Source of the DNA: a virus
Virus record (IMG/VR): IMGVR_UViG_3300044712_000264
Span: 1-64,000 of that record
Reading direction: 5' to 3' (one strand)
Length of the DNA: 64,000 nucleotides
Shown here: positions 7,509-43,831 of the stretch, piece by piece
Position numbering within the stretch: position 1 is the first letter of the stretch
Layout: the number at the start of each line of letters is the position of its first letter
Program-made: the position numbers and the translations under genes
Notes under the pieces: generated by a model
The model's database searches: none
What the model saw: only the letters and a program-made list of their open reading frames with translations
Told to the model about the DNA's origin: nothing

Positions 7509-7684
7509 TCGAGCAGGACGACCTCCGCGATCTGACGATGGCAATTGTCCTTGGCGGCATCATGGCAAAAGTGGCTCACTCGGCTATGCCCCCCAGCAGC
7601 ATACATGCCGCTGTCTCGCTCGCCATGCAAGTTGCTGACGTGGCAATGCAAGAGCGGTACAAGCAGGCTGAGGTTGTGGAATGA
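7505..7684 (+). CDS. Small hypothetical helical protein
   Basis: 59 residues, coupled at both ends by ATGA overlaps (7505-7508 and 7681-7684). Translation begins MIEQDDLRDLTMAIVLGG and is strongly alanine/valine helical. Not recognised. Confidence 0.65.
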   Translation: MIEQDDLRDLTMAIVLGGIMAKVAHSAMPPSSIHAAVSLAMQVADVAMQERYKQAEVVE

Positions 7685-8037
7685 ACTGCACTCTCACACT
7701 CCCTTGGCCACCAAAACAGCTCTCGCCTAATGCCCGCATCCATTGGGCGACTCGCGCAAGGCATGCTAAAGGCTATAAATCGGCTTGCTATGCCATCACA
7801 AAGAGTGCCGGGCTACTACCCCCTTGCCCCACAGGGGAAATCGCTCTGAGGCTTGATTTTTTCGCACCTACTCGACGCAAGAGGGACTTAGACAACTTGC
7901 TTGCCAGCATGAAGGCTGGTCTTGATGGTGTGGCGTGGGCGCTGGGCGTTGACGATTCGCGGTTCACATTCGCTATCGCGCTGGCGGATGAGGTTGGTGG
8001 ATTCGTAAAACTGCACATTGGAGATTCTGAACAATGA
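7681..8037 (+). CDS. rusA: RusA-family Holliday junction resolvase
   Basis: 118 residues, normal for the family. LPWPPKQLSPNARIHW at the N-terminus and the acidic core RRKRDLDNLLASMKAGLDG are RusA hallmarks, the two Asp of RDLDN coordinating metal. It cleaves four-way junctions during phage recombination and replication. It overlaps both neighbours by 4 bases. Confidence 0.93.
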   Translation: MNCTLTLPWPPKQLSPNARIHWATRARHAKGYKSACYAITKSAGLLPPCPTGEIALRLDFFAPTRRKRDLDNLLASMKAGLDGVAWALGVDDSRFTFAIALADEVGGFVKLHIGDSEQ

Positions 8038-8498
8038 ACATCAACATCCAACAACTTCACACTAACGCCAAAGTTCCAACTTACGCACATCACGGCGATG
8101 CCTGCTTTGATCTTTACGCGGCCACTGTAGACGGGAATACGCACATCGGAAAGATCGTCTATGAAGGCGCGCCGGTTGTGTGTGGCACCGGATGGTCTTT
8201 CGAGATCCCGGCAGACCATGCCATGCTCGTATTCAGCCGCAGCGGGCACGGGTTCAATTACGACCTTCGGCTGGCCAATTGCGTGGGCATCGTGGACGCT
8301 GGATACCGGGGAGAAGTAATGGTGAAGCTCACCTGCGATGCGCCGGATGATGATGTATCGCCGCCCTACAAAATCAATCCGGGTGATCGCATAGCCCAGG
8401 CAATGATTATCCCTGTTGAGCGCGTTTCGTTTGATGTGGTGGATGAGCTGTCAGAAACGGAGCGTGGGGATGGCGGGCTTGGGAGTTCTGGGCTATGA
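8034..8498 (+). CDS. dut: dUTP diphosphatase
   Basis: 154 residues with all five dUTPase motifs in order: GDACFDLYA, FSRSG, GIVDAGYRGEVMVK, PGDRIAQAMI and the C-terminal P-loop-like ERGDGGLGSSG. The trimeric enzyme hydrolyses dUTP to dUMP, keeping uracil out of phage DNA and feeding dTMP synthesis. Overlaps of 4 bases at both ends. Confidence 0.95.
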   Translation: MNINIQQLHTNAKVPTYAHHGDACFDLYAATVDGNTHIGKIVYEGAPVVCGTGWSFEIPADHAMLVFSRSGHGFNYDLRLANCVGIVDAGYRGEVMVKLTCDAPDDDVSPPYKINPGDRIAQAMIIPVERVSFDVVDELSETERGDGGLGSSGL

Positions 8499-8680
8499 CG
8501 CCACCAGTTGAAAAGTACGGCTGTTTTAATCGCCCGCCAATCGTCACATTCGGCCAGCAGGATTGTCAATTTACACGGACCTGGCTTGGCATGCACGACC
8601 CGAAGTGCGAAGGCTGCAAACACAAGGAGCAAAGAACTGATGGACAAAACACCGAAACTCACGAACCAGCTCGTATTTGA
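8495..8680 (+). CDS. Small Cys-containing hypothetical protein
   Basis: 61 residues, ATGA-coupled to dut. FNRPPIVTFGQQDC and KCEGCKHK give a possible Cys/His metal site. It overlaps the next gene by 41 bases. Not recognised. Confidence 0.6.
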   Translation: MTPPVEKYGCFNRPPIVTFGQQDCQFTRTWLGMHDPKCEGCKHKEQRTDGQNTETHEPARI

Positions 8681-8984
8681 GTGCATCCAGGATTTGCACA
8701 ATCGAGAGAAGCCAGCAACACGGGAGCACCTGGCGTCTCGCTTCGGCGTGGCACTGATGGTTGTGGACCATCACATCAAGCAGCTGCTTTCGTCGGACAG
8801 GATTGTCAAAATCAAATCTGGCGTGTACACACCAGCGTTTGTCGAGCCTCAGTCACGCCCAGTCAGCACGACTTTTCTCAACAACGGATTTATCAAGCTC
8901 GAAATCGGGGATGACGTGTTGCAGCTCACGCCGAGTGAGAGCAAGAAGGTTGCCCTTGCTATGGCTGGGTTGGTGGCTGTGTAA
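8640..8984 (+). CDS. Winged-helix protein, candidate late-gene regulator
   Basis: 114 residues from ATG 8640 (AAGGAG upstream). The segment TREHLASRFGVALMVVDHHIKQLLSSDRIV followed by VYTPAF reads as a helix-turn-helix plus wing. It is the last gene before the first CAGAGTTTG promoter (8989), the place where lambda keeps Q. A role in switching on late transcription is therefore attractive but is inference from position only. Confidence 0.65.
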   Translation: MDKTPKLTNQLVFECIQDLHNREKPATREHLASRFGVALMVVDHHIKQLLSSDRIVKIKSGVYTPAFVEPQSRPVSTTFLNNGFIKLEIGDDVLQLTPSESKKVALAMAGLVAV

Positions 8985-8988
8985 TTTA

Positions 8989-9023
8989 CAGAGTTTGACT
9001 AGACGCTTGACGCTGCGCAATAT
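8989..9023 (+). promoter_or_regulatory. Late promoter 1 (terminase)
   Basis: CAGAGT (8989-8994), then TTGACT (8995-9000), 17 bases, CAATAT (9018-9023). Same plan as the sites at 13500, 14492 and 44007. The predicted start lies 2-3 bases before the ATG at 9032, so that mRNA would be nearly leaderless. Confidence 0.6.
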
Positions 9024-9031
9024 TCGCAGCT

Positions 9032-9700
9032 ATGGAAAAAGCAGCGCCAAGGAAAAAGCGTAAGACAGACTGGGACGCGGTAGAGCGAGATTACCGTACG
9101 GGGAAATTCACAAGTCGTGAACTGGCTGAAAAATATCAGGTGAGTTTCAGCCTGATAGCCCGGAACGCCAAGAAGCACGGATGGACTCAAGACCTAGCTA
9201 CTGCTATTCGACAAGCTACCAACGCAAAGTTAATTGACGATCTTGTAAGCCGAGAAGTTCACGGAACTTCACAAAAAGTACACAACACAATCGAGGCCGC
9301 AGCCGATGTAAATGTCGGAGTAATCCTCGGGCATCGAGTCGGCCTAAAGCGAATCACAACAATCAAAGAGCTGCTGCTAGACCAGGTTGAGCAAGCAACC
9401 ATAAACATGGTTGACCTGGCCGATGTGATCGAGATGGTGCGAAACCCGGACGAAAACGGGATTGATCGGGCGAATGATGCGCTCAAGAAAGCAATGGGTC
9501 GCAGTGCATTGGTGGATGATCTCAAGAAGCTGACCGATGTGGATGAAAAGGTTCGCAAAGGTGAGCGAGAGGCGTTCAGTATTGACAGCACACCCCCTGC
9601 CGAAGCCGATGCGTTCACGACGCTACTGCTCAAAATCAGCACAGGCAACAGTTCATCATTCCAGCCAGTGCAGCAAGACCCTGCGCACGACGAGGACTGA
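9032..9700 (+). CDS. terS: Terminase small subunit-like protein
   Basis: 222 residues. The N-terminus KKRKTDWDAVERDYRTGKFTS followed by RELAEKYQVSFSLIARNAKKHGW is the helix-turn-helix found in many phage small terminase subunits. The middle is helical and the C-terminus acidic. It sits directly before the large subunit. It should recognise the packaging site and regulate the motor. No Shine-Dalgarno sequence precedes ATG 9032, consistent with the near-leaderless promoter call. Confidence 0.82.
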   Translation: MEKAAPRKKRKTDWDAVERDYRTGKFTSRELAEKYQVSFSLIARNAKKHGWTQDLATAIRQATNAKLIDDLVSREVHGTSQKVHNTIEAAADVNVGVILGHRVGLKRITTIKELLLDQVEQATINMVDLADVIEMVRNPDENGIDRANDALKKAMGRSALVDDLKKLTDVDEKVRKGEREAFSIDSTPPAEADAFTTLLLKISTGNSSSFQPVQQDPAHDED

Positions 9701-9702
9701 CC

Positions 9703-11286
9703 GTGGCACAGGCTCAAGAGATTCAGCCCGCACTGCCGACGAACAAGGAGGAGCTTGCCCGTTGCCTGGCTGATCCTGAGTGGCGATTGTTCTCAGGGGC
9801 TTTGTACAAAATTATGATTAAAGGCGATGACGGCGAAGTGGAGGCCGTCATTCCATTTAAGCCAAACCGCGCCCAGCGTCGATTTGTCACTCGACTATGG
9901 CACCGCAATATCATACTCAAGGCCCGCCAGCTTGGATTTACCACTCTGGTATCAATTCTGTGGCTGGATCATGCCCTGTTCAACGCAAACCAGCGGTGCG
10001 GCATCATCGCACAGGACAGGGACGCAGCAAAGGTCATATTCCGCGACAAAGTTAAGTTCGCGTATCAGAATCTCCCGCCAGAGGTGCGAGACAGGTTCCC
10101 GCTGGAGGCCGACAATGCCGACGAACTGCTATTTGCCCACAATAATTCCAGTGTTCGCGTTGCGACATCCATGCGCTCGGGCACCATCCACCGGTTGCAC
10201 ATTTCAGAGTTCGGAAAGATTTGCGCCAAGTACCCGGAGAAAGCCGCCGAGGTCATCACTGGATCAATACCTTCTGTGCCTACGAACGGCATACTGGTCA
10301 TTGAATCGACCGCAGAGGGACGCGAAGGCGAGTTCTATGAACTGGTGCAGCGCGCGGAGGGGATGGACGCAAGTAAGGCGCTACTGACACCCAAGGACTA
10401 CCGCTTCCACTTCTATGCGTGGTGGCAAGAGCCAAAGTACCGGCTGCCAGCCAACACGGTTCACATCAGCGACAAGGAGCATGAATACTTCGACCTGATC
10501 GAAGCCAAGATGCAATGCCGCATCGACCCGGACCAGCGCGCCTGGTACATCGCCACCCGAGCATCTGATTTTTCAGGGGCCGAAGAACGGATGTGGCAAG
10601 AGTATCCGTCAACGCCCGAGGAAGCCTTCCAGATCAGCACCGAGGGCAACTACTACGCCAAGGACATGATCGCCGTGCGCAAGCGTGGAGGCGTCACCCG
10701 CGTACCTGTGCTCGACCTTCCAGTGAATACGTTTTGGGACATTGGCAATAGCGACGGATGCGCAGTCTGGTTTCATCAAGAGCTGCGCGGCGAAGACCGC
10801 TTCATTGACTATTACGAGGCCCACGGAGAGGACTTGCGCCACTACGTCAAAGAGTTGACCGCCAAGGGCTATGTGTTTGGTGCTCACTTCCTACCGCACG
10901 ACGCCGACCACAAGCGCCTGGGCGACTACAACAAGAGCACCCGCCAAATGATGATGGAGCTGATGCCAGGTCAAAAGTTCATTGTTGTGCCCCGCATCAC
11001 AGAGCTAATCACCGGCATCCAGCAGACCCGAAAGCACCTAAAAGGCATTTTCATTGACGCAGACAGGTGTAAGAAGGGCATCGAGCGCATTGAAGGCTAC
11101 AAGAAGAAGTTTAGCCGCGCAGACAACCGATTCACGGACGATCCAGACAAGGCTAACGGATGCAGCGAAGGTGCAGACGCCTTGCGCCAGTATGCCCAGG
11201 CCAAGGAAACCGGCTTGTTGACTTATTCCGGCCAAGCATCCAACGAAGAACGCCCACCACCACCACCACCAGCCTGGTATCTATGA
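9703..11286 (+). CDS. terL: Terminase large subunit
   Basis: 527 residues from GTG 9703. The ATPase part carries an atypical Walker A (KARQLGFTT, residues ~73-81) and the Walker B/IESTAEG region. The C-terminal nuclease begins at TFWDIGNSDGCA (about residue 345), whose Asp should bind metal, and continues with the FLPHDADHK segment. It pumps DNA into the prohead and cuts it. The C-terminus ends in a run of six prolines. It overlaps the portal start by 4 bases. Confidence 0.94.
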   Translation: MAQAQEIQPALPTNKEELARCLADPEWRLFSGALYKIMIKGDDGEVEAVIPFKPNRAQRRFVTRLWHRNIILKARQLGFTTLVSILWLDHALFNANQRCGIIAQDRDAAKVIFRDKVKFAYQNLPPEVRDRFPLEADNADELLFAHNNSSVRVATSMRSGTIHRLHISEFGKICAKYPEKAAEVITGSIPSVPTNGILVIESTAEGREGEFYELVQRAEGMDASKALLTPKDYRFHFYAWWQEPKYRLPANTVHISDKEHEYFDLIEAKMQCRIDPDQRAWYIATRASDFSGAEERMWQEYPSTPEEAFQISTEGNYYAKDMIAVRKRGGVTRVPVLDLPVNTFWDIGNSDGCAVWFHQELRGEDRFIDYYEAHGEDLRHYVKELTAKGYVFGAHFLPHDADHKRLGDYNKSTRQMMMELMPGQKFIVVPRITELITGIQQTRKHLKGIFIDADRCKKGIERIEGYKKKFSRADNRFTDDPDKANGCSEGADALRQYAQAKETGLLTYSGQASNEERPPPPPPAWYL

Positions 11287-13514
11287 TTAACTCACTCTCC
11301 CACGAAACAATCAGCCCGGTAGACCAGCCTGCAGACGATGGCGGTCTGTCATTGCGCCAGTTTGAACGCTTCTTCATCGAGATACGCAAACAGCCATCCT
11401 GGCGAGCACGAGCAGACAAAGAAATGGAGTACGTCGATGGCAATCAGCTCAACAGTGAGGTGTTGCAGGCACAGAAAGCCATCGGTATGCCTCCGGCTAT
11501 CGAGCCGTTGATTGGGCCTGCTATCGAGGCGGTACTGGGCCTGGAGGCCAAAACGCGCACTGACTGGCGTATCACTGCCGATGGCACAGATGGTGATGAT
11601 GTGGCCGACGCGCTCAATGAGAAGCTGAACCACGCAGAGCGCCAATCCGGTGCCGACCGTGCGTGCTCAGACGCATTCAAGACGCAGGTATGCGTTGGCA
11701 TTGGTTGGGTGGAGGTTCTGCGTGAGACTGACCCGTTCAAGCCGTTCCCGTACCGCTGCGAAACCGTGCATCGCAACGAAATCTACTGGGATTTTTTGAG
11801 CAAGAAGCCTGATTTGAGCGATGCACGCTACCTCGTGCGCCGACGCTGGGTTGATGTGGCGCAGGCCAGATTGATGTTCAAGGAGCATGCCGAACTGATA
11901 GACCGTGCATTTGGACGCTGGACTGATAAATATGAGCTGGCTACCGATGGCGGAACATCCACCAATATGGGGCGTTCATGGGACGATCAACGCGGATCAA
12001 GCATCGAAGAACAGGAATGGATGGACTCAGAGAATAACCGCGTCTGTCTGTTCGAGGTCTGGTATCGACGCTGGGCCGATGTCGTCATTCTCAAATCGCC
12101 CGATGGCCGCGTGGTTGAGTACGACGAAACCAACGATATGCACAACGAGGCTTTGGCCCTTGGTTTTATACAGCCACAGCGAGCCATCATCGCCAAGATG
12201 CATGTCTCGTTCTGGATGGGGCCGCACAAGCTGCACGACGGGCCGACACCGTACCCACATCAGGACTTCCCCTACGCGCCATTCTGGGGCCACAGAGAAG
12301 ATAGAACCGGCGTGCCTTACGGCAGCGTGCGCGGCATGGTCTATCTGCAAGATAACGTAAACAGCGCAATATCCAAGATCCGCTGGGGCTTATCAGCCAT
12401 TCGCACAGAGCGCACTCGCGGCGCAGTGGTGTACACGGATGAAGTGTTCAGGCAACAGATAGCCCGCCCGGACGCTGACATTGTGCTCAACGCCGAGCAC
12501 ATGGCGCAGCCTGGCGCCAAGTTCGAGGTATTCAGAGACTTCCAGCTCAACGAACAGCAGTACAAGATGCTCATGGATGCCCGCATGGGTATCGAGCGGG
12601 CATCGGGCATCACTGCGTCGTTTGCTGGCCAGCGCGGCACAGCAAACAGCGGGCTGCAGGAGGCCACCCAGATCGAGCAGGCCACGCAGTCGCTGGCAAG
12701 CCTTATGGATAACTTCCGCTATGGCCGTACCAAAGTGGGAGAACTGCTGCTGTCGCTCATCATCGAGGATATGGTTGGCAAGCCAGAGACTGTCACGATC
12801 CGTGGCAATGCCGTGCTTCCTGATCGTGATGTGGCACTCAATCAGCCGACATCGGACGACGAAACTGGCATGCAGTACCTGACAAATGACGTTGCGCGCA
12901 CGCGGTTGAAGGTGGCATTGAGCGACGTGCCGAGTACACCCAGCTTCCGCACACAACAACTGGCCGCAATGAGCGAGGCGTTCAAGTCCATGCCTCCGCA
13001 GTATCAGGACGTGGCATTGCCGCATCTGCTGGCCCTGATGGATATTCCGAACAAGCAGGAGATCATCCAGGCCATCCAAGAGGCCAAGTCGCAGCCGTCG
13101 CCAGAGCAGGTGCATGCGGAATGGGAGCGCGACTACAAAGACCGCGAGCTACTGGCACGCTACAACCCGGACAAACTTGAGGCCGATATAAAGAAAATCA
13201 CGGCTGAAGCTGTGTCCACTGGCGTGAAGTCGGCGTTTGGCGCCGTGCAGGCTGGTCAACTCATTGCACAAATGCCACAGATCGCGCCGGTGGCGGACGT
13301 GGTGCTCCAGAACGCAGGATGGACGCCACCAAATCCATCCGGGCAAGACCCCAACCTGCCGCAGCCAAACATTGCTGTGCCACCTGGCCCTGTAAACCCA
13401 GGCGATACATCGCCGCAGACACCAACGGACCCGACATCGCCGCAAGGGAGCGCAGTCGTGGGTGAAAACGCAGGTATCAACACAATGCGAGAAGATTCGC
13501 AGAGTTTGCAGTAA
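11283..13514 (+). CDS. Portal protein, P22-like
   Basis: 743 residues from ATG 11283; the longer in-frame reading from 11160 only runs back through terL. Motifs typical of P22-type portals include EMEYVDGNQLNSEVLQ, RTDWRITADGTDGDD, VGIGWVEV and YRCETVHRNEIYWD. The long helical region IERASGITASFAGQRG to ATQIEQATQSLASL fits the barrel and wing. The last ~60 residues are Pro/Gly/Thr-rich. Twelve copies should form the DNA entry vertex. A late promoter overlaps the 3' end of the gene. Confidence 0.93.
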   Translation: MINSLSHETISPVDQPADDGGLSLRQFERFFIEIRKQPSWRARADKEMEYVDGNQLNSEVLQAQKAIGMPPAIEPLIGPAIEAVLGLEAKTRTDWRITADGTDGDDVADALNEKLNHAERQSGADRACSDAFKTQVCVGIGWVEVLRETDPFKPFPYRCETVHRNEIYWDFLSKKPDLSDARYLVRRRWVDVAQARLMFKEHAELIDRAFGRWTDKYELATDGGTSTNMGRSWDDQRGSSIEEQEWMDSENNRVCLFEVWYRRWADVVILKSPDGRVVEYDETNDMHNEALALGFIQPQRAIIAKMHVSFWMGPHKLHDGPTPYPHQDFPYAPFWGHREDRTGVPYGSVRGMVYLQDNVNSAISKIRWGLSAIRTERTRGAVVYTDEVFRQQIARPDADIVLNAEHMAQPGAKFEVFRDFQLNEQQYKMLMDARMGIERASGITASFAGQRGTANSGLQEATQIEQATQSLASLMDNFRYGRTKVGELLLSLIIEDMVGKPETVTIRGNAVLPDRDVALNQPTSDDETGMQYLTNDVARTRLKVALSDVPSTPSFRTQQLAAMSEAFKSMPPQYQDVALPHLLALMDIPNKQEIIQAIQEAKSQPSPEQVHAEWERDYKDRELLARYNPDKLEADIKKITAEAVSTGVKSAFGAVQAGQLIAQMPQIAPVADVVLQNAGWTPPNPSGQDPNLPQPNIAVPPGPVNPGDTSPQTPTDPTSPQGSAVVGENAGINTMREDSQSLQ

Positions 13515-32713: not shown

Positions 32714-35700
32714 ATGGCTTTTGAATTTGATAGCAGTACAGCGCAAGCAGAAAATACGTTTGATTGGGCTACTGCAGTTCCATACGAGTCACCAAAACCA
32801 CCATCTCTAACAGACCGTCTTGGCTTTGGCATCCGCAACACCATAGACTATGGCCGCATCGCTGCAACCAATGACAAAGACGAGATAGCTGGAATCGTTG
32901 CTGATGTTGATAGCAGACGCACAGCACCTACGCATGAACAGGTGCAGATGCAGAAGGAATACGACCCATACCGCCAGCGCGCAAACGAAGCGGATGGCGT
33001 AGTCGATACGACGCTTGCATACGGGTCTGCTGCTGCTAAACGGTTGGGACAATTTGCGCAGCACCCACGTGAATTTGCGGGGATGATTGCCGAGAATCTG
33101 CCCAATTCAGCGCCAGGTATGGCTGCAGGTCTCGCCGGTGCGGCATTAGGCTCTCAGGTATTACCTGGATGGGGAACGGCAGTAGGTGGCGTTGTAGGAG
33201 GCACTGCTGGCGGATATGCGGTTGAGCAAGGTTCCTCCATGCTTGAGCAAATCCAAAAAGAGGCTCAAGCACGGGGCATCAACCCACAAGACAAGGCCGC
33301 AATGTCGGCCATGATCGGGGAGAAATACTCCGAATTCTTGCCAGCTTCACAGCGCAAAGGTGTCGGCACAGCAGGGACAGACGCACTACTCAACACCTTG
33401 ACAATGGGTGTTGCTGGGGCAGGTGAGCGAGTCCTTGCAAAAGAAGCCAGAGCACTTGCCGAAGGCGTAAAAGACGGTTCTATCAGCGCAACAAAAGCCG
33501 CTGAAATATCGGCTGACATTTCAGCGCGTAACGCTGCAATGAATACGCTTGGTGCCAAGACACTACGCGGAGCAGGCATCACCGGCAGTGAGATGGCTGG
33601 AGAAGGCTTGTCTGAGGCCGCAGGGCAGAAGTACGCCTATGGGAATGTCGATGCTGGCGACGTGATTGATGAATCCTTGCTTGGCTTAGGTCAAGGTGTC
33701 GGCATGGCAGCTGGGCATAAGGCGATTGATAGGGTTACTGGTGCATCGGATAGCAACCAGATTGACGATTACCTAAAAGCTACTGCACCTCAACAACAAG
33801 AAACACCCCCAGATCAACCTCCCCTGATTGGCTCAAACCCGGATGCAGGGGCAATGGTTGTATTCAAAGACGGTACAACCGCATATCGTTCTGACTTTGA
33901 AAACGCTCTTGCTGCAATGCCAGAAGATGAGCGTGCAGCAACCATGGCGCGCGTCATGGGGTATGCGCCACAGTCAGCGAACCCGGATGAATCGGCGATC
34001 AACCCGGACGACCCGGCTATACCGCCCCAACAGACAAAATCAGAGGCAATGGGGCTGGTCCCCACTGATGCTCCGTCCATCACCAATGCCGCAATCGCCG
34101 CCGTTGAAACTGGCGCGCATGACATCGAGCAAGAGAATGCCGCACAAGAGCAAGCGTCAACACTTGAACAGGCTGCGCATGCAACCAAAGTCGAAGCGCC
34201 AAAGGTTGACCAGAAGAATATCGCTATCGAGATAGCCAAGTCTTTGCGCGAGGGAATTGCAGCAGACGCGCAAGCCGGAGTAATCCGCCCGCCACAAGAA
34301 CAAGAGCGTTCAATGCTGCTTGGATTGCTTGATGTACAAGATGGCGGCAACCTCAGCAACCAGGAACTTGAGAGCAGGCTATCCGCCAAACAACGAAAGG
34401 ATTTTGAGTGGCTGCAAAACTTTTCAGCCAGCGAAAGTATCGCAACGGCACGGCGCAATGCGCAACAACAGCCGACAACGCAATCAGATTTACCCACCAC
34501 GCCAACTACAGGAGAAACCTATGGCAACCAAAACCCCAGTACCCAGCAAAAAATCAGCTCCCAGCAAAGCCCCGGCCAAGATGCCAATGCAGATGCCCAA
34601 GGGCAAAAAGGGCTGCTAAACCCGCAGACTCTTGCGCAACACCCCTACTCCACCAACTCGGGGGATGCTCAAAACAATGATCAAACCACCCAAGCCATCG
34701 CGCCAGAAGCGCAACAACCGGCCCAGCAGCCCGGCGCCAAGCCTACCCCAGCGCCCCTGAGCGTGCCGGATAGGCTTCGGGCACAGAGGGAGCAGCTATC
34801 TGCTCCCGCCCTGCCATCTATCAATCTTCCGAAGGACGAGCGCCAACGCCAGCAGGCGCTCAAGGGAGAATTGCGAGACAGACTCGGACTAACCCCAGGC
34901 CAAACCCAAGCCGCCCCGAAGCGTAGTCCGTTCAAAGAATTCATTGTTGCCAACGGTATCAGCGACTCACCCGCCGACGTAGTTGGCGAAAGCAACGCAT
35001 TCCGGGCAAACAATATCCTGCCGCGTGCATTCCGCAAGAACGGGTTAAGCCTGGACGCACTGGCCGAGAGAGCGGTTCAAGCCGGGTACATCACCCAGGA
35101 CGATCTTGATGCAGGGAACGCGCATACTGTGCTGGCATCCATGATCCAGGACGAGGTTGCAGGGCGCAAGGTGCATCTCCCGATGAACATGCAGACGGAT
35201 GATGCTGCGGCAAAAATGGAATCGTACCGGCGCGCAGAGATGGAGGATGCGGCGGATAAGTATGGTTTGCCATACGACCAGTACACGCGCACAGACAATT
35301 TGGCGAGCATGGTCCGCCGTGTTCAAACCAGACTTGAACAACCAGACCCCACCGGCCTACTGAAACCAGAGCGCATCTTGCGCAATGCCCAAGATGCAGT
35401 AGCACGCATCGAGCGCAAACGCGCCCAAGAATCGGAGCGTTATCAACAGTTCGCAAAGCTGACTTCCAACGAGCAGGATGCTGCAATCGACGTGCTGACC
35501 GGCGACAATGGGCATCCAATATTTGCGCGTCGTGCTGACCTTGATGCACACGCCGCATGGCACCAGGCACAGCAACAATGGAGCGACTTATATGGCGAAG
35601 CCTACACCCCCGACAATGCCGAACAACAGAGTGTCGGAAAAGATCAAGCACCTACCGCTGGAATCACAGAAGCGAGTCCTGGAAGCGCTCAAGGAAATGA

Positions 35701-38700
35701 TACCGCAGCACAACCGGGAAGCGCTCCAGTTCAAGATGGAACAGGCCAAGACCAGCAAGAGCAAACCTTCGGACTGACCAGCCCGAACCGCTCAGATGTT
35801 CTGACGCAGCAGGCAGCGATTGAGGCCGAAGCAGCACGCAAAGAACAGGGCGGCGATAAACCTATCACGCGCAAGGTGACTGCGGATCAGGTTGACTTGT
35901 TCAATCCTCAAGGTGGATTGTTTGATGCGCCGGCAGATGATCCTGCCCCGCCACCAACCAATCTCAAGGAAGGATTGGAGAGGATAAGGGCGAAGAATGC
36001 GCCCGCAGAAAAATTACCAGCAGGCTGGACAGAAAGCGCGCCAGGGCGACTCGCAACAAACGAAGACCCCGCAACAGGCGGCATAGTGGATACCGCAATA
36101 GGGACCGGCAAGTGGTTTGCAATCAGCAATGAAACCAATGGACGGATACCTGGAGATTTCAATACAAGGGCAGAAGCTATTGCTGCACTCGGGACGCAGG
36201 ATAAGACAGGTAGCACGACAGACGCAACCGACTTAAACGCCATGTTTGACGATGTTTTGTCAGAAGAACTGGCAAGGCGTCAACCGGCAGAATCACCTAA
36301 GAGTGTTCCTGAAAAGATACGTGCAGCAAGAGCAAAGCGCAAGCAAGGCCCACGCACAGCCACCCAGGCCACAGTAAGCGCTGTAAAGAATACCGCATCG
36401 GCACTGAACAACGCAATCGACGGACTGGGCGCATTATTTGGCGGAAATACTAGCGGAAGGCTTGGTTCTGGTCTATCCTTTGACGAGGACACATACGCAA
36501 AGGCCAAGCCGCTATTCCAAGCTGCTATTGCCAATCTGGCAGACGCAGGCAGTGACATCAAGGAAGCCATGCGCGCCATTGTGAAGATGGTGTTAGACAA
36601 GTTTGGGAGTGCTGCTGCGCAAAATATGAAACCGTATGTTGTGCGGTTCATTCAAGATGTGCAAAGCGGAAACGATGCAGCGACAACCGATAATCATGGC
36701 AACGGAGTATCAAATGTACCAAGTACCGACAATAGTGTGGAACGAAATAGCGCAGTCGCAAGCGCTGAGCGAACCGTGGGGTACGCTATTCAGGATGACG
36801 CAGGAGGAACTACCGTCCGGCCTGGAGAAGCTGGTGGACGAACCACTGGAAGCACAGGGCGCGGACAACAGGACGGTGATAGCGTACCGACTGGTAGCAC
36901 CACTGCTACAGGAGAACGAGGCAATCAGCGACTACATCATGTTGGTGGACAATCCGAGCTTACGAGCATCGTTACCGGAGCTGACTTCAGTGAACGAGGC
37001 GGTGATTCTGGCATCACAGGAGTACCTCCTGAACCCATCTCAACAAGCCAAGTTGACGCAGCTGCTGACCAAAGCCATACAGGGTTAAAAGCTGGGATTG
37101 AGCGCGCACGCGCCAATAAAGTCCCGGTAACAACGGGCGACATCGATAACATCCGAGCCACGTTACCCCAGCTACTACCCGGCCAGCAAGAAGATGTAAA
37201 ACTGGCAGAAACACGCTTTGCCAAGGTTGACGGCTACGGAATGCTGTTTACCAATGGGACTGGTACAGGCAAGACATTTTCAGGTCTTGGAGTTATAAAG
37301 CGGTTTGCATTGCAAGGCAAGAACAACACGCTGATCGTTGCGCCAGATAACAAAATTGGAACCGACTGGATAGATGCAGGCAAGCGGCTTGGCCTGGATA
37401 TAACCTTGCTGAAAGACACCAAGGACTCAGGCAAGGGTATTGTCATCACGACTTACGCCAACCTTGGAGAGAACGATACTCTGGCAAGTCGCAAGTGGGA
37501 TTTGGTTGTATCAGATGAGGCGCACTCGCTCATGCAAGCGGCGAACGGTGAGCCGACAAGCTACCTGTACAACCTGCGCGCTATCACCAATCACCCGGAC
37601 GGCGCACATACCCGCTTCAACATGCTGCACCGTGCGGAACTTGATCGAGCCACAGCACTTGGCAAGGGAATAGAAGAAATCGAACGCGACATGTCAGCAT
37701 CGGACACAACCGATATGCGCCGTTCCTCACTCGAAGCCAAGAGCGAAAAGATGCAATCTGAGCTTGGTGATTTGCGTAAAAAACTCGATGCCGCCAAGGC
37801 CAAAGTACTGGCAGAAGTTAAAGCCAGCCAGGGTGCAGGCCGCACACGACTGGTCGCACTATCTGCTACGCCCTTCGCCTACGAAAAAACAATCGACTGG
37901 GCCAACGGCTACCTGTTTGACTACAACGAAGGGCAGGCAAGCGAAGAAGGATCATTCCGAGGCTACAACGCGGGCAGCAACAAAGACCGCTACATGATGC
38001 AGCACTTCGGTTACTCGATGCGCTACAACAAACTCACACAGCCTGATTCAAAGGTGGATCGCGGACTGATGCAGCGCCAGTGGAATGCCAGCCTGAAAAA
38101 GTCGGGCGCATTGTCGGGCCGGATGCTTGAGGTGAAACCCGACTATGACAGGCGCTTCATTTTGGTGGAATCAGCCATTGGCAACCGCATTGACGAAGCG
38201 CTGGATTGGATCAGCGAGCAACGACAGGCAGAAAAAGGCCAAGGCCCATATTCCGATCTTGGAGATGCGATCAATGAGCAATTCAAGTACCTGCAAAAAC
38301 GCTATCTACTGGAGGCGATCAAGGCCACTGAGGTAATTCCGATTGTGAAGCAGCACCTCGCAATGGGACGCAAGGTAGTGGTGTTCCACGATTACAAGAA
38401 GGGTGGAGGCTTCAATCCGTTTCGTGTCAATACGGCGGTGAAGTCGGACATGGCCGCTGCAGTGCGGGAGTTCGAAGCAAAGTTCAAGGACTTGGTGAAT
38501 GCGCCGCTTGGTTCTATGCCTTCGCCCATTGAGGTATTCAGCCGGGAATTACCACAGACTCTGTTGATAAATGGCGACGAAAAGCAAGCTGATTTACTCA
38601 AGCGCTACAAGTCGTTCCAAGACGATGCCAATGGGCCGCAGGTCATGCTGGTGCAGTCTGCCAAGAACAAAGGCTGGAGTGGGCACGACACCACAGGCAA

Positions 38701-41700
38701 GCATCAGCGTGTGCTAATCAACCTGGGGCAACCCACAGCCCCCACACTGGCGATACAGCAAGAGGGTCGAATCTACCGCACAGGGCAAGCATCAGACGCG
38801 ATCATGCGCTACATGAACACCGGTACCAACTGGGAGCGCTGGACGTTTGCAACCACCATTGCAGGGCGGGCAAGTACCGCCGAGAACCTTGGCATGGGAG
38901 AGATGGCGCGCGCGCTCAAAGACTCGTTCATCCAGTCGTTTGAAGAATCAGACGCTTACCCGCCAGGGCATGAAAACGAGGGCAAAGGCGGAAAGGAGCG
39001 AGACAAAGCCGCTAATGATGCGATCACCGAGTACGACCGGGCAAAGACCTTCTACTTCGGGCAACAGAAAAAGAACAGCAAAACCAAAGCGCAAGAGGGT
39101 GCCGACTACTTCGCCACGCCTGAGCCTATCGGCCTGAAAATGGCGCAATGGCTGGATGCGCGAGGCGGTGAGGATGTTCTTGAACCAAGCGCAGGGCATG
39201 GAGCAATTGCACGATGGATACCAGACAACACCAGCCGTACCGCAATTGAGCCAAGCCTGACGCTGCGCTCACGCATGGCAATGGTGATGAATCCTACCGA
39301 GGATCGCATTATTGATGGTACGTTTGAAGATCACCACGTTGGAAACAAGTACGACGGCATTGCGATGAATCCGCCATTTGGATCAGGCGGGAAGACGGCC
39401 ATTGACCATCTGGCAAAAGCTGCGACCCACTTGCGAGACGGTGGACGCATTGTTGCGCTGATACCCACCGGGCCAGCAGCAGATAAGAAGTTTGATAAGT
39501 GGTTTTATGACAAGAGCGAGAGGCCGGTCAAGCCACTATTCAAGTCTGATGCGGGCGATGTTCGTAAGGGCGATACGGTCTATGTCTACGATGAATATCA
39601 GAAGAAAGAACGGCCTTTTATTGTTGGGTCGTATGACTCAAAGAACAACCTCTTCTTTGACGTTGGTAGAACAATCGGATGGGGCACGCACGAAGTTCGT
39701 AGGGTTGAGCGCACAGGCACGCAAACCGAGTCATTCAACGCCGCAGAAGGCTTGCAGTTGGTTGCCAACATCAAACTGCCACAAGTTGCATTTGAACGCG
39801 CTGGAACGTCAGTAGCTACGCGCATTGTGGTTCTTGAGAAAGGTGGCGCAAATGTGATGCAGCGTGACCGGGATTACTCGGGTATCACGGACATCAACGA
39901 ACTGTTCGACAAACTTGAGCACCTGGACTTTGCAGCCAGAACCAAGCCGGTAGAAGCTGCGCCTGTTGAAGCTACAAAGGCTGAAAAGCCAGCAACAGCA
40001 CCCAAGCCCGCAAAGTCAGCCGCCAATGAAGGAGACGAAGTTTCTATCAACGGCAAGAAGTACGAAATCCAGATTTACACCACCAACGTAGGCAAGGCGA
40101 AGCGCGGTATTTGGATGGACTCAAAAACAGAGGCCAGCAAGTACAGCGCCCGCACATTCACGCACAGCTCCAACAAGGGCAAGTGGTTTGTTGATGAATA
40201 CTGGTTCCCGAAGGATTCTGAGATCATCAAACCATCCACACAACAATCCCACATCAGCAACGGCGACTCCAGCTACGAAGAGACTGCCAAGGTGCAAGCT
40301 GGCATCGAGGGCAAAAGCCTTATTGACGCAGCTCGATTCATTGAGCAAACAGGCACACCAGCACAGGCCGAGATTGCAAAGCAAGTCATCTCCAAACTGG
40401 AGCGATTACAGGCCAGTAGTGTCAAACTGGAATTGATCGTTGCGCATCGTGGCGACCAGGTTCCTGCACAAATGGGTAAGTCCAGGGGGTACACAGAATC
40501 CGGGTTTGACAACAAAGGCCGCGATATTACTGTGTGGGTAGCTGGTGCCGATGTGACTGGCCGGGTAGGGACGGATTACGAAACGGTGCTGCATGAGATG
40601 GTACACGCTGCGACGATGGGCGTTGTTCAGTTCGGTAGAACAAATCCCAATTCTTTGGCCGGTAAGCATGTCCGGGATCTGTCCGCCGTAACGAGCGCTA
40701 TATCCAGCCACATCATCGACAGGTTCGCCCAGGCCGACAGCGGCAAAACAGAATTGACCGAGTTTGAAAAGGATGTGCGAGCTGGGGCAAACAACGCCTT
40801 CCGTGGTATTGACGAGGTGCTTTCATGGGCTTTGACAAGTCCTCAAGCACAGTCATATCTTGAAGGGATACCATACAAAAACCAGAACCTGTGGACCAAG
40901 TTGGTGCAGGCGATTCGCACTCTGCTTGGCCTTTCGCCAACAGCAGACACGGCCTTGTCAGAAGTCTTGCGCGTTGCTGAAAACCTGATGGCATCCGATC
41001 TGAACGACCACGCTATGCAGGCATTTTGGCACAAGCGAGGGATAGGGATGAGCACCATTCAGGCGGCAGGCTCCATTGTCCTGCCAAAGAAAAACGGGCC
41101 GAAATCCCTAATCACAAACCAAGCCCTGCCAACAACATGGCAAGCACCAGATGCCACCAAGATGGACGACTTCATCTACTCGATGCAGGACAAGAACATC
41201 GACACGCGACGAGTCATTGACACCATCAACCAGACCATAGGGGCCATCAATGAGCAGCAAAACCCGTACCTGCAGGAAGAGTTGTACCACGGGCGCGCAG
41301 CCATGGCCACCAAGGAGTTCTTGGAGAAGCAGGTGCGCCCGTTGTTGGTTGAACTGCGCACACGCGGCATAACGATGGAGGACTTGGAAGCGTATCTGCA
41401 CAATCGACACGCCGAAGCGCGCAACATCCAGGCGGCGAAGATCAATCCCGACAACCAAGACATGCAGGACGGCGGCAGCGGCATCAAGACTGCCGATGCT
41501 CGCGCCTACCTTGCTGCATTGACCCCTGCGCAAACCACGGCATTCAAGTCGCTGGCGGCCAAGGTTGAGAAGATCACCCAATCCACCCGTGAGTTGCTGG
41601 TTTCCAGCGGTCTTGAAAAGCAGTCAACCATCGGAGCATGGGAACAAGCCTACGGCGACGAGTACGTCCCACTGCAACGTGAGGAAATGGAGAACGGCAT

Positions 41701-43831
41701 GGGCATCGGCCAGGGCATCAGCACCCGTGGAAGTGCCAGCAAGCGATTCATGGGAAGCGATAAGAAGGTGGTAAACATCTTCTCAAACATCGTCATGGCG
41801 CATGAGCGGGCCATCACCCGCAGCGAGAAAAAGCGTATTGGTGAAGCGCTCTACGGCCTGGTGCTCAAGGCGCCCAACCCCGACTTCTGGTTTGCAATTG
41901 ACCCTGCATTGCAGCAAAACCCGAAGAAGGTCATGGACACCATGATGCAGCTTGTCAACATGGGCCTGGACCCCGCAGACGCGGACAGCATTGCCAGAGA
42001 GCCGACGACACGCTACATCAACCCAATCACCAAGACGGTGGAGTCACGCATCAATCCAGCCATGCGCAATGCAGAAAACGTTCTGGCCGTTCGCATTGAT
42101 GGCGAGGATAAGTTCGTGTTCTTCAACAAGAAGGATGAGCGTGCCATGCGTATGGTCAAGGCGCTAAAAAATCTTGATTCTGACCAGTTGGGAGAGGTAA
42201 TGGGCGCTGTATCCAAGGCCACCCGCTACTTTTCGGCCATCAATACGCAGTTCAATCCGATCTTCGGCGTGACCAACCTGCTGCGCGACATTCAGACGGG
42301 CATGCTCAATCTGCAATCCACCGCACTCAAAGGCAAGCAAGGTGCCATCGCCAAGAACGTGGTACCGGCACTGATGGGCATCTATTCTGACTTGCGCAAA
42401 CACCGTGCAGGGAAAGCGGCAACATCTGACTATGCGAAGCTGTTCGAAGAGTTTCAGCGCGAAGGTGGCGCAACGGGATACCGTGATATGTTTGCCAATG
42501 CGAAAGAACGCGCAGACGCAATCGAGCAAGAGATCAAAGACATCGGCGCTGGCAAGGCCAAGCAGTTGGGTAAAGGAATCCTTGGCTGGTTGAGTGACTA
42601 CAACGAAGCAATGGAGAACTCTGTGCGATTGTCAGCGTACAAGGTTGCCAAGGAACAGGGCATGAGCAACCAGCAAGCTGCTAGCCTTGCCAAGAATCTG
42701 ACGGTGAACTTCAACCGCAAGGGGCAAGTGGCGCTACAGGCTGGTGCGCTGTATGCGTTCTTCAATGCCAGTGTGCAGGGCACTGCGCGCATCGCCCAGA
42801 CTCTTACCGAAGATGGCAAGCTGTCTACCGTTGGAAAGCAGATCCTCATCGGAGGATTGACGCTGGGTGCCATGCAGGCCGTATTACTGGCCGCTGCGGG
42901 GTTTGACGATGGGGAGCCTCCAGACTTCGTGCGCGAGAGGAATCTGATTATCCCGATTGGCGGAAGCAAGTATGTCTCCATCCCCATGCCGCTGGGCTTC
43001 CACGTGATACCAGGCCTTGCGCGCATTCCTACAGAGTGGGCCATGGGCGGATTCAAGAACACGCCAAAGCGCATCGCCCAGATCGCAGCCATGTTCGCTG
43101 AGGCCATGAACCCCATTGGGTCTGCGGGATTGTCGATGCAAACACTGGCGCCCACAGTGCTCGATCCGTTTGCTGCTTTGACTGAAAACAGAGACTGGAC
43201 AGGTAAGCCGATTGCCAAGTTGGACTTTAACTCCCTGCGCCCCACTGCGGGCCACACGCGGGCAAAGGACACCGCCACGCCCTGGGCTACGTTCCTATCC
43301 AAAGCAGTCAACTACGCAACAGGTGGAGACGAGTACAAACCAGGAGTTGCGAGTCCAACGCCAGACCAGATTGATTACCTGATCGGCCAGGTTACGGGTG
43401 GCGTTGGCCGCGAGATCAGCAAGGCATCACAGGTGGTGAAATCAGCAACGACAGGTGAGGATTTGCCACTGTTCAAGACACCATTGATTGGGCGCTTTGT
43501 CGGAACCACAGAAGGCAATGCAGCCGAATCAAGCCGGTTCTATGAGAACCTGAAACAGATCGGCGCGCACAAAGCCGAGATTGATGGCCTCAAGCGGGAC
43601 CACAAGCCATTGGAAATCATTCGATACCTGCGCGAGAACCCGGATGCGCAACTGTTGACTGCTGCGACGCACGTTGAAGAGCAGATTCAGAAATTGACGC
43701 ACCTACGGCGCGCACTGGTTAAGAAAGATACGCCACCGGAGCGCGTTAAGGCAATAAACGATCAGATCACAGCCAGGATGGCGCAGTTCAACAAGATGGT
43801 GAAGCAGAGGGAGTTGGCGGGGGCGGGGTGA
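32714..43831 (+). CDS. Giant polyvalent virion protein: helicase, methylase, protease-like and LPD domains (DarB-like)
   Basis: 3,705 residues in one frame. A glycine-zipper segment lies at ~132-175. A SNF2/DEAD helicase has Walker A GTGTGKT (Lys1520), DEAH at 1601-1604 and motif VI QQEGRIYRTGQ at 2015-2025. An adenine-methylase-like domain has EPSAGHGA near 2157 and NPPF at 2219-2222. A zinc-protease-like HEMVH is at 2627-2631. The last ~1,000 residues are helical, with membrane-like stretches (ILIGGLTLGAMQAVLLAAA). P1 DarB, which combines methylase and helicase and protects injected DNA, is the closest known idea. Low-complexity linkers at residues ~603-635, 960-1021 and 1334-1458 cover three small genes in another frame. 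Confidence 0.88.
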   Translation: MAFEFDSSTAQAENTFDWATAVPYESPKPPSLTDRLGFGIRNTIDYGRIAATNDKDEIAGIVADVDSRRTAPTHEQVQMQKEYDPYRQRANEADGVVDTTLAYGSAAAKRLGQFAQHPREFAGMIAENLPNSAPGMAAGLAGAALGSQVLPGWGTAVGGVVGGTAGGYAVEQGSSMLEQIQKEAQARGINPQDKAAMSAMIGEKYSEFLPASQRKGVGTAGTDALLNTLTMGVAGAGERVLAKEARALAEGVKDGSISATKAAEISADISARNAAMNTLGAKTLRGAGITGSEMAGEGLSEAAGQKYAYGNVDAGDVIDESLLGLGQGVGMAAGHKAIDRVTGASDSNQIDDYLKATAPQQQETPPDQPPLIGSNPDAGAMVVFKDGTTAYRSDFENALAAMPEDERAATMARVMGYAPQSANPDESAINPDDPAIPPQQTKSEAMGLVPTDAPSITNAAIAAVETGAHDIEQENAAQEQASTLEQAAHATKVEAPKVDQKNIAIEIAKSLREGIAADAQAGVIRPPQEQERSMLLGLLDVQDGGNLSNQELESRLSAKQRKDFEWLQNFSASESIATARRNAQQQPTTQSDLPTTPTTGETYGNQNPSTQQKISSQQSPGQDANADAQGQKGLLNPQTLAQHPYSTNSGDAQNNDQTTQAIAPEAQQPAQQPGAKPTPAPLSVPDRLRAQREQLSAPALPSINLPKDERQRQQALKGELRDRLGLTPGQTQAAPKRSPFKEFIVANGISDSPADVVGESNAFRANNILPRAFRKNGLSLDALAERAVQAGYITQDDLDAGNAHTVLASMIQDEVAGRKVHLPMNMQTDDAAAKMESYRRAEMEDAADKYGLPYDQYTRTDNLASMVRRVQTRLEQPDPTGLLKPERILRNAQDAVARIERKRAQESERYQQFAKLTSNEQDAAIDVLTGDNGHPIFARRADLDAHAAWHQAQQQWSDLYGEAYTPDNAEQQSVGKDQAPTAGITEASPGSAQGNDTAAQPGSAPVQDGTGQDQQEQTFGLTSPNRSDVLTQQAAIEAEAARKEQGGDKPITRKVTADQVDLFNPQGGLFDAPADDPAPPPTNLKEGLERIRAKNAPAEKLPAGWTESAPGRLATNEDPATGGIVDTAIGTGKWFAISNETNGRIPGDFNTRAEAIAALGTQDKTGSTTDATDLNAMFDDVLSEELARRQPAESPKSVPEKIRAARAKRKQGPRTATQATVSAVKNTASALNNAIDGLGALFGGNTSGRLGSGLSFDEDTYAKAKPLFQAAIANLADAGSDIKEAMRAIVKMVLDKFGSAAAQNMKPYVVRFIQDVQSGNDAATTDNHGNGVSNVPSTDNSVERNSAVASAERTVGYAIQDDAGGTTVRPGEAGGRTTGSTGRGQQDGDSVPTGSTTATGERGNQRLHHVGGQSELTSIVTGADFSERGGDSGITGVPPEPISTSQVDAAADQSHTGLKAGIERARANKVPVTTGDIDNIRATLPQLLPGQQEDVKLAETRFAKVDGYGMLFTNGTGTGKTFSGLGVIKRFALQGKNNTLIVAPDNKIGTDWIDAGKRLGLDITLLKDTKDSGKGIVITTYANLGENDTLASRKWDLVVSDEAHSLMQAANGEPTSYLYNLRAITNHPDGAHTRFNMLHRAELDRATALGKGIEEIERDMSASDTTDMRRSSLEAKSEKMQSELGDLRKKLDAAKAKVLAEVKASQGAGRTRLVALSATPFAYEKTIDWANGYLFDYNEGQASEEGSFRGYNAGSNKDRYMMQHFGYSMRYNKLTQPDSKVDRGLMQRQWNASLKKSGALSGRMLEVKPDYDRRFILVESAIGNRIDEALDWISEQRQAEKGQGPYSDLGDAINEQFKYLQKRYLLEAIKATEVIPIVKQHLAMGRKVVVFHDYKKGGGFNPFRVNTAVKSDMAAAVREFEAKFKDLVNAPLGSMPSPIEVFSRELPQTLLINGDEKQADLLKRYKSFQDDANGPQVMLVQSAKNKGWSGHDTTGKHQRVLINLGQPTAPTLAIQQEGRIYRTGQASDAIMRYMNTGTNWERWTFATTIAGRASTAENLGMGEMARALKDSFIQSFEESDAYPPGHENEGKGGKERDKAANDAITEYDRAKTFYFGQQKKNSKTKAQEGADYFATPEPIGLKMAQWLDARGGEDVLEPSAGHGAIARWIPDNTSRTAIEPSLTLRSRMAMVMNPTEDRIIDGTFEDHHVGNKYDGIAMNPPFGSGGKTAIDHLAKAATHLRDGGRIVALIPTGPAADKKFDKWFYDKSERPVKPLFKSDAGDVRKGDTVYVYDEYQKKERPFIVGSYDSKNNLFFDVGRTIGWGTHEVRRVERTGTQTESFNAAEGLQLVANIKLPQVAFERAGTSVATRIVVLEKGGANVMQRDRDYSGITDINELFDKLEHLDFAARTKPVEAAPVEATKAEKPATAPKPAKSAANEGDEVSINGKKYEIQIYTTNVGKAKRGIWMDSKTEASKYSARTFTHSSNKGKWFVDEYWFPKDSEIIKPSTQQSHISNGDSSYEETAKVQAGIEGKSLIDAARFIEQTGTPAQAEIAKQVISKLERLQASSVKLELIVAHRGDQVPAQMGKSRGYTESGFDNKGRDITVWVAGADVTGRVGTDYETVLHEMVHAATMGVVQFGRTNPNSLAGKHVRDLSAVTSAISSHIIDRFAQADSGKTELTEFEKDVRAGANNAFRGIDEVLSWALTSPQAQSYLEGIPYKNQNLWTKLVQAIRTLLGLSPTADTALSEVLRVAENLMASDLNDHAMQAFWHKRGIGMSTIQAAGSIVLPKKNGPKSLITNQALPTTWQAPDATKMDDFIYSMQDKNIDTRRVIDTINQTIGAINEQQNPYLQEELYHGRAAMATKEFLEKQVRPLLVELRTRGITMEDLEAYLHNRHAEARNIQAAKINPDNQDMQDGGSGIKTADARAYLAALTPAQTTAFKSLAAKVEKITQSTRELLVSSGLEKQSTIGAWEQAYGDEYVPLQREEMENGMGIGQGISTRGSASKRFMGSDKKVVNIFSNIVMAHERAITRSEKKRIGEALYGLVLKAPNPDFWFAIDPALQQNPKKVMDTMMQLVNMGLDPADADSIAREPTTRYINPITKTVESRINPAMRNAENVLAVRIDGEDKFVFFNKKDERAMRMVKALKNLDSDQLGEVMGAVSKATRYFSAINTQFNPIFGVTNLLRDIQTGMLNLQSTALKGKQGAIAKNVVPALMGIYSDLRKHRAGKAATSDYAKLFEEFQREGGATGYRDMFANAKERADAIEQEIKDIGAGKAKQLGKGILGWLSDYNEAMENSVRLSAYKVAKEQGMSNQQAASLAKNLTVNFNRKGQVALQAGALYAFFNASVQGTARIAQTLTEDGKLSTVGKQILIGGLTLGAMQAVLLAAAGFDDGEPPDFVRERNLIIPIGGSKYVSIPMPLGFHVIPGLARIPTEWAMGGFKNTPKRIAQIAAMFAEAMNPIGSAGLSMQTLAPTVLDPFAALTENRDWTGKPIAKLDFNSLRPTAGHTRAKDTATPWATFLSKAVNYATGGDEYKPGVASPTPDQIDYLIGQVTGGVGREISKASQVVKSATTGEDLPLFKTPLIGRFVGTTEGNAAESSRFYENLKQIGAHKAEIDGLKRDHKPLEIIRYLRENPDAQLLTAATHVEEQIQKLTHLRRALVKKDTPPERVKAINDQITARMAQFNKMVKQRELAGAG
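34521..34619 (+). CDS. Small basic protein embedded in the giant gene (other frame)
   Basis: 32 residues, MATKTPVPSKKSAPSKAPAK and a tail ending GKKGC. A very good ribosome site precedes it: AGGAG (34510-34514), 6 bases, ATG. The frame is +1 relative to the giant gene, whose own translation here is Gln/Thr/Pro/Ser low complexity. Small Lys/Pro/Ala-rich proteins of this kind occur as separate genes in phages. Whether it is expressed is not known. Confidence 0.45.
   Translation: MATKTPVPSKKSAPSKAPAKMPMQMPKGKKGC
35592..35777 (+). CDS. Small helical protein embedded in the giant gene (other frame)
   Basis: 61 residues: MAKPTPPTMPNNRVSEKIKH, then LPLESQKRVLEALKEM and a Lys-rich tail. GGAG lies 8 bases before ATG 35592. 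It reads as a normal amphipathic helical protein, whereas the giant frame over the same bases is Gln/Gly/Thr/Ala linker. Same relative frame as the other two embedded genes. Confidence 0.5.
   Translation: MAKPTPPTMPNNRVSEKIKHLPLESQKRVLEALKEMIPQHNREALQFKMEQAKTSKSKPSD
36714..37088 (+). CDS. 124-residue protein embedded in the giant gene (other frame)
   Basis: Start ATG 36714 has GGAG 6 bases upstream; an in-frame ATG at 36696 has none. The product (MYQVPTIVWNEIAQSQALSE, EELPSGLEKLVDEPLEAQG, AISDYIMLVDNPSLRASLPE) has ordinary, balanced composition with predicted helices. The giant frame in the same stretch is Gly/Ser/Thr/Asp-rich and featureless. This asymmetry argues that the embedded frame is the older or constrained one. 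Function unknown. Confidence 0.58.
   Translation: MYQVPTIVWNEIAQSQALSEPWGTLFRMTQEELPSGLEKLVDEPLEAQGADNRTVIAYRLVAPLLQENEAISDYIMLVDNPSLRASLPELTSVNEAVILASQEYLLNPSQQAKLTQLLTKAIQG

Follow-up and report, generated by a model that had tools for sequence, protein, structure and literature searches.

Small reading frames inside a giant phage gene

When short open reading frames lie wholly inside a much longer gene, it must be asked whether they are genes at all and, if so, which of the two superimposed frames came first. We asked this for a window of 64,000 nt (positions 1 to 64,000 of IMG/VR record IMGVR_UViG_3300044712_000264), where a first-pass annotation had pointed out three such frames, ORF1 to ORF3, in one alternative frame of a giant gene, each behind a good GGAG-type site at 6 to 8 bases. 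All three were found as described (Table 1), each +1 to the giant frame, with AGGAG 6 nt before ORF1, GGAG 8 nt before ORF2 and GGAG 6 nt before ORF3. Our main conclusion concerns ORF3, which we regard as a genuine protein-coding gene, contained entirely within the giant gene and read in its +1 frame; taken jointly with its translation, the linker and the fusion scenario set out below, we give this reading a probability of about 0.85.

Table 1. Coordinates of the giant gene, the embedded reading frames and associated features (window positions unless a locus is named)
Feature	Position	Strand	Remarks
Giant polyvalent gene	32714..43831	+	3705 aa; host frame of the nested frames
ORF1, 32-aa +1 reading frame	34521..34619	+	no relatives, no codon signal
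ORF2, candidate nested gene, 61 aa, +1 frame	35592..35777	+	lineage-restricted; relatives, reversed periodicity (35570-35782), resampling
"U" domain of the giant frame (FDEDTY...MKPYVVRF)	36478..36690	+	immediately 5' of ORF3
Predicted disordered giant-frame stretch	36677..37018	+	pLDDT below 50; residues 79-192 of the modelled segment; mostly over ORF3
Putative Shine-Dalgarno GGAG of ORF3	36704..36707	+	6 nt 5' of the ATG
ORF3, putative nested gene, 124 aa, +1 frame	36714..37088	+	predicted compact helical protein; best supported of the three ORFs
Predicted helicase and methyltransferase core	37154..39520	+	first motif LPxLLxxQ
50-aa +1 reading frame, example	L025 6842-7000		directly before ORF3

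The phage is temperate and has portal, major head and integrase genes, and the giant gene is positioned after the virion genes. A domain search of the giant gene returned Pfam LPD38 (1.5e-38), ResIII (8.9e-10) and PHROGs 10691 and 5143, and the 3705-aa product combines a type III/strawberry-notch-like SF2 helicase, an adenine-methyltransferase-like region and LPD38. The three elements that mark a DarB-like protein, SF2 helicase, adenine methyltransferase and polyvalent-associated domain, are all found in this single chain, and by its sequence the giant gene resembles a DarB-like polyvalent, antirestriction-type phage protein. DarB of P1 is reported to be packaged in the virion and to be active against restriction in cis (PMC5512222). 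The DarB-like polyvalent proteins of Iyer et al. 2017 share the SF2 helicase, the methyltransferase and the phage-type LPD38 with the giant gene, but the nested genes do not belong to the family as described, and the main text is silent on overlap (PMC5512222).

Across loci the LPxLLxxQ motif starts a median of 65 nt 3' of the ORF3 stop. On the other side of ORF3 the giant domain is of at least three interchangeable types over many loci, several of them ending in KPY-like motifs; the U domain of the window was judged by eye to be of the same type as that in locus L090. A leftover internal helicase start just 3' of ORF3 was also considered and set aside, as a start codon with a Shine-Dalgarno (SD) match was present in only 23 of 101 loci and at inconsistent positions.

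Conservation and distribution of ORF3

The proposal of embedded genes depends on the frames being kept in relatives, and for ORF3 this is what we found. A tblastn search with ORF3 matched eight phage records, corresponding to six distinct isolated phages of Serratia, Pseudomonas, Klebsiella, Vibrio and Ruegeria, at 33-43% identity. All six have the match within the giant gene as annotated, +1 to its frame, and ORF3 itself is annotated in none of the eight records. A Comamonas plasmid record also has a homologue in the same frame. With a profile search 48 IMG/VR loci were retrieved, and in each of them an undamaged ORF3 of 119-140 aa sits within a giant frame that is open. As these searches start from ORF3, the helicase was used as query to avoid the resulting bias, distinct genes being counted by shared sequence; ORF3 was nested at offset +1 in 80 of 80 loci, and after adding a divergent-helicase search it was carried by 95 of the 100 distinct helicase genes in IMG/VR. 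The homologues share 21-84% identity, very distant viruses being among their carriers, and hardly any of the related loci sampled is without one in this frame.

ORF3 and the helicase are inherited together (r=0.73, Mantel p 0.001), and in the phage collection the helicase is present only in the eight records that also have ORF3. Outside the giant gene ORF3 is rare, with a handful of copies among about 1250 bacterial genomes. Two partial matches in bacteria (G994 and G1110, E 3e-4 and 8e-4), each limited to the C-terminal half and lying within a 260-aa frame, were disregarded. We found no annotation of the nested gene, nor a paper describing it in the literature searched, which included few subscription papers and preprints. 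Standard annotation overlooks a near-universal gene of this phage group.

Constraint on the two overlapping frames

Over ORF3, substitutions at ORF3 codon positions 1/2/3 numbered 542/430/922 in 27 pairs; it should be noted that the sequences are related by descent, and that such pair counts are not independent. This phase is the reverse of that of the giant gene, whose third position is the slowest there, while 3' of ORF3 the giant frame returns to an ordinary pattern (1851/1410/4203 at its own positions 1/2/3). When the giant gene of the window was scanned against that of locus L007, codon periodicity was reversed only at ORF2 (35480-35782) and ORF3 (36701-37150). Resampling of synonymous codons with the giant amino acids held fixed showed that the similarity of ORF3 exceeds prediction, with z of 9-14.

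Stronger constraint on the giant frame than on the embedded one would speak against the proposal and was not observed. Averaged over all pairs, identity in the giant frame was no higher than in the unused third frame at nearly every divergence level (where ORF3 is 0.35 identical, 0.213 for the giant frame versus 0.239 for the third frame), and substitutions gather at position 3 of ORF3. The giant frame is nevertheless open over ORF3 in 57 of 57 sequences, the third frame in 0 of 57, and synonymous shuffles of ORF3 leave the giant frame open in 25% on average. The giant is thus read through here, but only openness and a flexible composition seem to matter.

The composition agrees with the earlier description of the giant frame as filler over the embedded genes, since order-promoting residues make up 14% of it over the ORF3 homologues. 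The companion claim, that the embedded frames are of ordinary protein composition, holds for ORF3 (32%, compared with 31% for the helicase) and fails for ORF1, which has 8 Lys and 6 Pro in 32 residues.

Predicted structure of the ORF3 product

A model of ORF3 built with 88 sequences has eight helices, a mean pLDDT of 96 and a pTM of 0.89, and the product, small and helical, is most likely soluble. Over the bases of ORF3 most of the giant frame was modelled as disordered, between a helical domain and the well-modelled helicase. The ORF3 model gave no structural match at E 0.001 in PDB or BFVD, and Pfam, PHROGs, PDB sequence and Foldseek searches with ORF3 gave nothing significant; as modelled, ORF3 is a protein family without known structural relative. 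The helix pattern of its C-terminal half has a weak, non-significant likeness to the PrmC/HemK N-terminal domain (PF17827), which we rejected as too weak (5 of 88 members, best E 0.0022; PDB 2b3t at E 0.75; no Foldseek match).

Possible roles of ORF3

We tentatively suggest, at slightly short of even odds, that ORF3 is a partner of the giant protein; bound to it in the producing cell, ORF3 might for instance keep it inactive, help it fold or load it into the particle. The suggestion comes from co-occurrence, as ORF3 is co-inherited with the helicase, missing beside unfused helicases and rare elsewhere. Against it count the variation of the domain before ORF3 and the existence of a fused giant, in locus L226, that lives without ORF3.

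It is less likely, though still to be reckoned with, that ORF3 is real but independent of the giant protein and serves in host takeover or counter-defence, its position being fixed by the overlap. Copies without the helicase do occur, in Geomonas, at the end of a Desulfamplus contig and on a beta-proteobacterial contig, and the other linker genes vary freely between lineages. The Geomonas copy (locus L142) moreover lies near genes for a NucS-like nuclease, a SIR2-resembling protein and a TIR-domain protein (7632-13471, on the other strand beside the ORF3 pair), a neighbourhood that looks like defence cargo of an integrated element. The rarity of ORF3 outside the giant gene and its absence beside unfused helicases speak against independence.

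Relative age of the frames

In 81 of 100 loci the codons of ORF3 agree better with the gene's own usage than do those of the giant frame over it; codon usage is a criterion applied to viral overlaps (PMC8227390). Younger frames shifted by +2 tend to have few hydrophobic residues and to be disordered (PMC8227390), and the linker, poor in hydrophobic residues and predicted to be disordered, fits this pattern.

The first-pass annotation had suggested looking for relatives with the small genes outside a split giant gene, and such an arrangement exists. In Geomonas a free-standing ORF3 follows an AGGAGG site directly after a separate 111-aa ORF, a homologue (38% over 104 aa) of the domain that precedes ORF3 in the giant frame of L090. 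In direct BLASTP this 111-aa ORF did not align with the U domain of the window, and used by itself as a query it found no relative in viral contigs. The Geomonas copy may be a secondary remnant of the fused form; ancestry aside, it shows that ORF3 can stand alone. In L143 and L144 the giant frame stops inside ORF3, and these forms, like the Geomonas element, could be derived. Upstream of the contig-end ORF3 in L143 (1-413) a short motif resembling CATGAGGGGTTATGAG occurs twice, as seen in translations only.

Of the helicase relatives without ORF3, four are unfused, have a start of their own and are about 840 aa long. The fifth non-carrier, L226 (513-8507), a natural deletion control, is a fused giant in which both ORF3 and the linker are missing and a few dozen residues separate the upstream domain from the helicase. 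Taken together, codon usage, the Geomonas copy, the unfused helicases and L226 favour, without proving, a giant frame drawn across an older gene; the polarity of the fusion rests on five non-carriers, too few to settle it firmly. Over the shared bases, the sequence evidence suggests, the giant frame is the younger of the two.

We propose that a fusion would have joined the helicase to the preceding part of the giant in one polypeptide, the frame running through a small gene that was already there. The second reading of that gene would then have become a disordered linker on whose sequence no constraint is visible except to stay open and flexible, and by equal logic ORF2 and the small +1 ORFs of other lineages may sit in such linkers. 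The earlier idea that the giant grew by fusion through intergenic small genes would in this form apply to ORF3 and largely to ORF2, and not to ORF1. We also think it rather probable that polyvalent phage proteins in general can grow by fusion through intact, still expressed genes, the out-of-phase reading serving as disordered linker.

Classical overprinting, in which ORF3 would have arisen de novo inside a pre-existing giant gene, appears improbable. Most internal +1 viral overlaps are read as de novo genes (PMC8227390) and nearly all known copies of ORF3 are nested, but codon usage, constraint and fold all speak for the ORF3 frame being the older one, and the L226 giant does without the stretch. 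In phiX174, as with ORF3, one coding frame encloses another on the same strand (gene E in gene D); E is read as de novo (PMC8227390), whereas ORF3 seems, by codon usage and constraint, to be older than the frame that encloses it.

Overlapping genes are usually viewed as young genes born in old ones, while the evidence here points to a long frame laid over an older gene, and about 100 natural variants make this a clean, testable case. Nested overlapping genes are already known in phages. Rz1-type o-spanins of dsDNA phages, for instance, are encoded by a small gene wholly nested in the +1 frame of Rz. ORF3 likewise lies wholly inside a dsDNA phage gene at +1, but it is modelled as a helical bundle, it lies in the linker of a giant gene, and here the host frame is unconstrained and the nested frame constrained. 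As an Rz1-type o-spanin itself ORF3 was rejected, the window copy having no cysteine for a lipobox. Other giant phage proteins may likewise deserve a search of their linkers for expressed genes.

Start signals and probable translation of ORF3

The start codon and ribosome site of ORF3 are conserved among relatives. The start is ATG in all 98 distinct sequences tallied; one copy found later and outside these 98, in L141, has a GTG start behind a TAAGGAGG site. An SD match of at least 4 nt precedes 88 of the 98 starts, compared with 15.9% for the remaining +1 ATGs of these genes, and one of at least 5 nt precedes 51 of the 98, compared with 3.5%. In 12 loci a +1 stop codon lies directly 5' of the ORF3 ATG and ends a separate 50-aa Lys-rich +1 ORF, an arrangement like that of ordinary tandem genes. 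Translation of ORF3 most likely begins internally on the giant mRNA, at the ATG and ribosome site of ORF3 itself.

The +1 phase is constant in all loci, as would be seen if programmed frameshifting from the giant frame gave a truncated giant protein with an ORF3 tail. We consider this very improbable, given the ATG at the homologous place in 98 of 98 sequences, the SD enrichment, the stop codon directly before the ATG in the 12 loci, and the Geomonas copy as a free-standing cistron with its own ribosome site.

ORF2, ORF1 and other nested reading frames

ORF2 has +1 relatives in L007/L010 and L014, with the core KIKHLPxESQKKVLEMAxKLAP, and resampling gave z of 5.8, 7.4 and 6.7 on few sequences. 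These data support ORF2 as a probable genuine nested gene, with less depth of relatives than ORF3. ORF1 was rejected as a gene, as neither tblastn nor motif search found relatives in any locus and codon periodicity is not reversed over it; its open frame is probably due to chance. The giant gene holds eight +1 ATG ORFs of at least 28 aa with an SD-like match, hence one such ORF by itself means little. The possibility that low-complexity DNA left all three frames open by chance, as seems true for ORF1, can practically be dismissed, in-frame conservation excluding it for ORF3 and making it unlikely for ORF2.

If the reading given here is right, one giant gene carries several small functional genes in its linkers, ORF3 being near-universal and the others lineage-specific. 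Further small +1 ORFs were noted in other loci. The 50-aa Lys-rich ORF that abuts the ORF3 ATG, with its own SD and z of 4-5, occurs in L020, L024, L025, L026, L030-L036 and L045. L016 and L019 (10307-10579) have a 90-aa ORF in a later linker, with an AAGGA site and reversed codon periodicity. A 94-aa Lys-rich ORF behind a strong SD is shared by L008 (6474-6758) and L060 (3983-4267), the two being 66% identical with z of 8.2, and L015, L073 and L039 hold a further family of small +1 ORFs.
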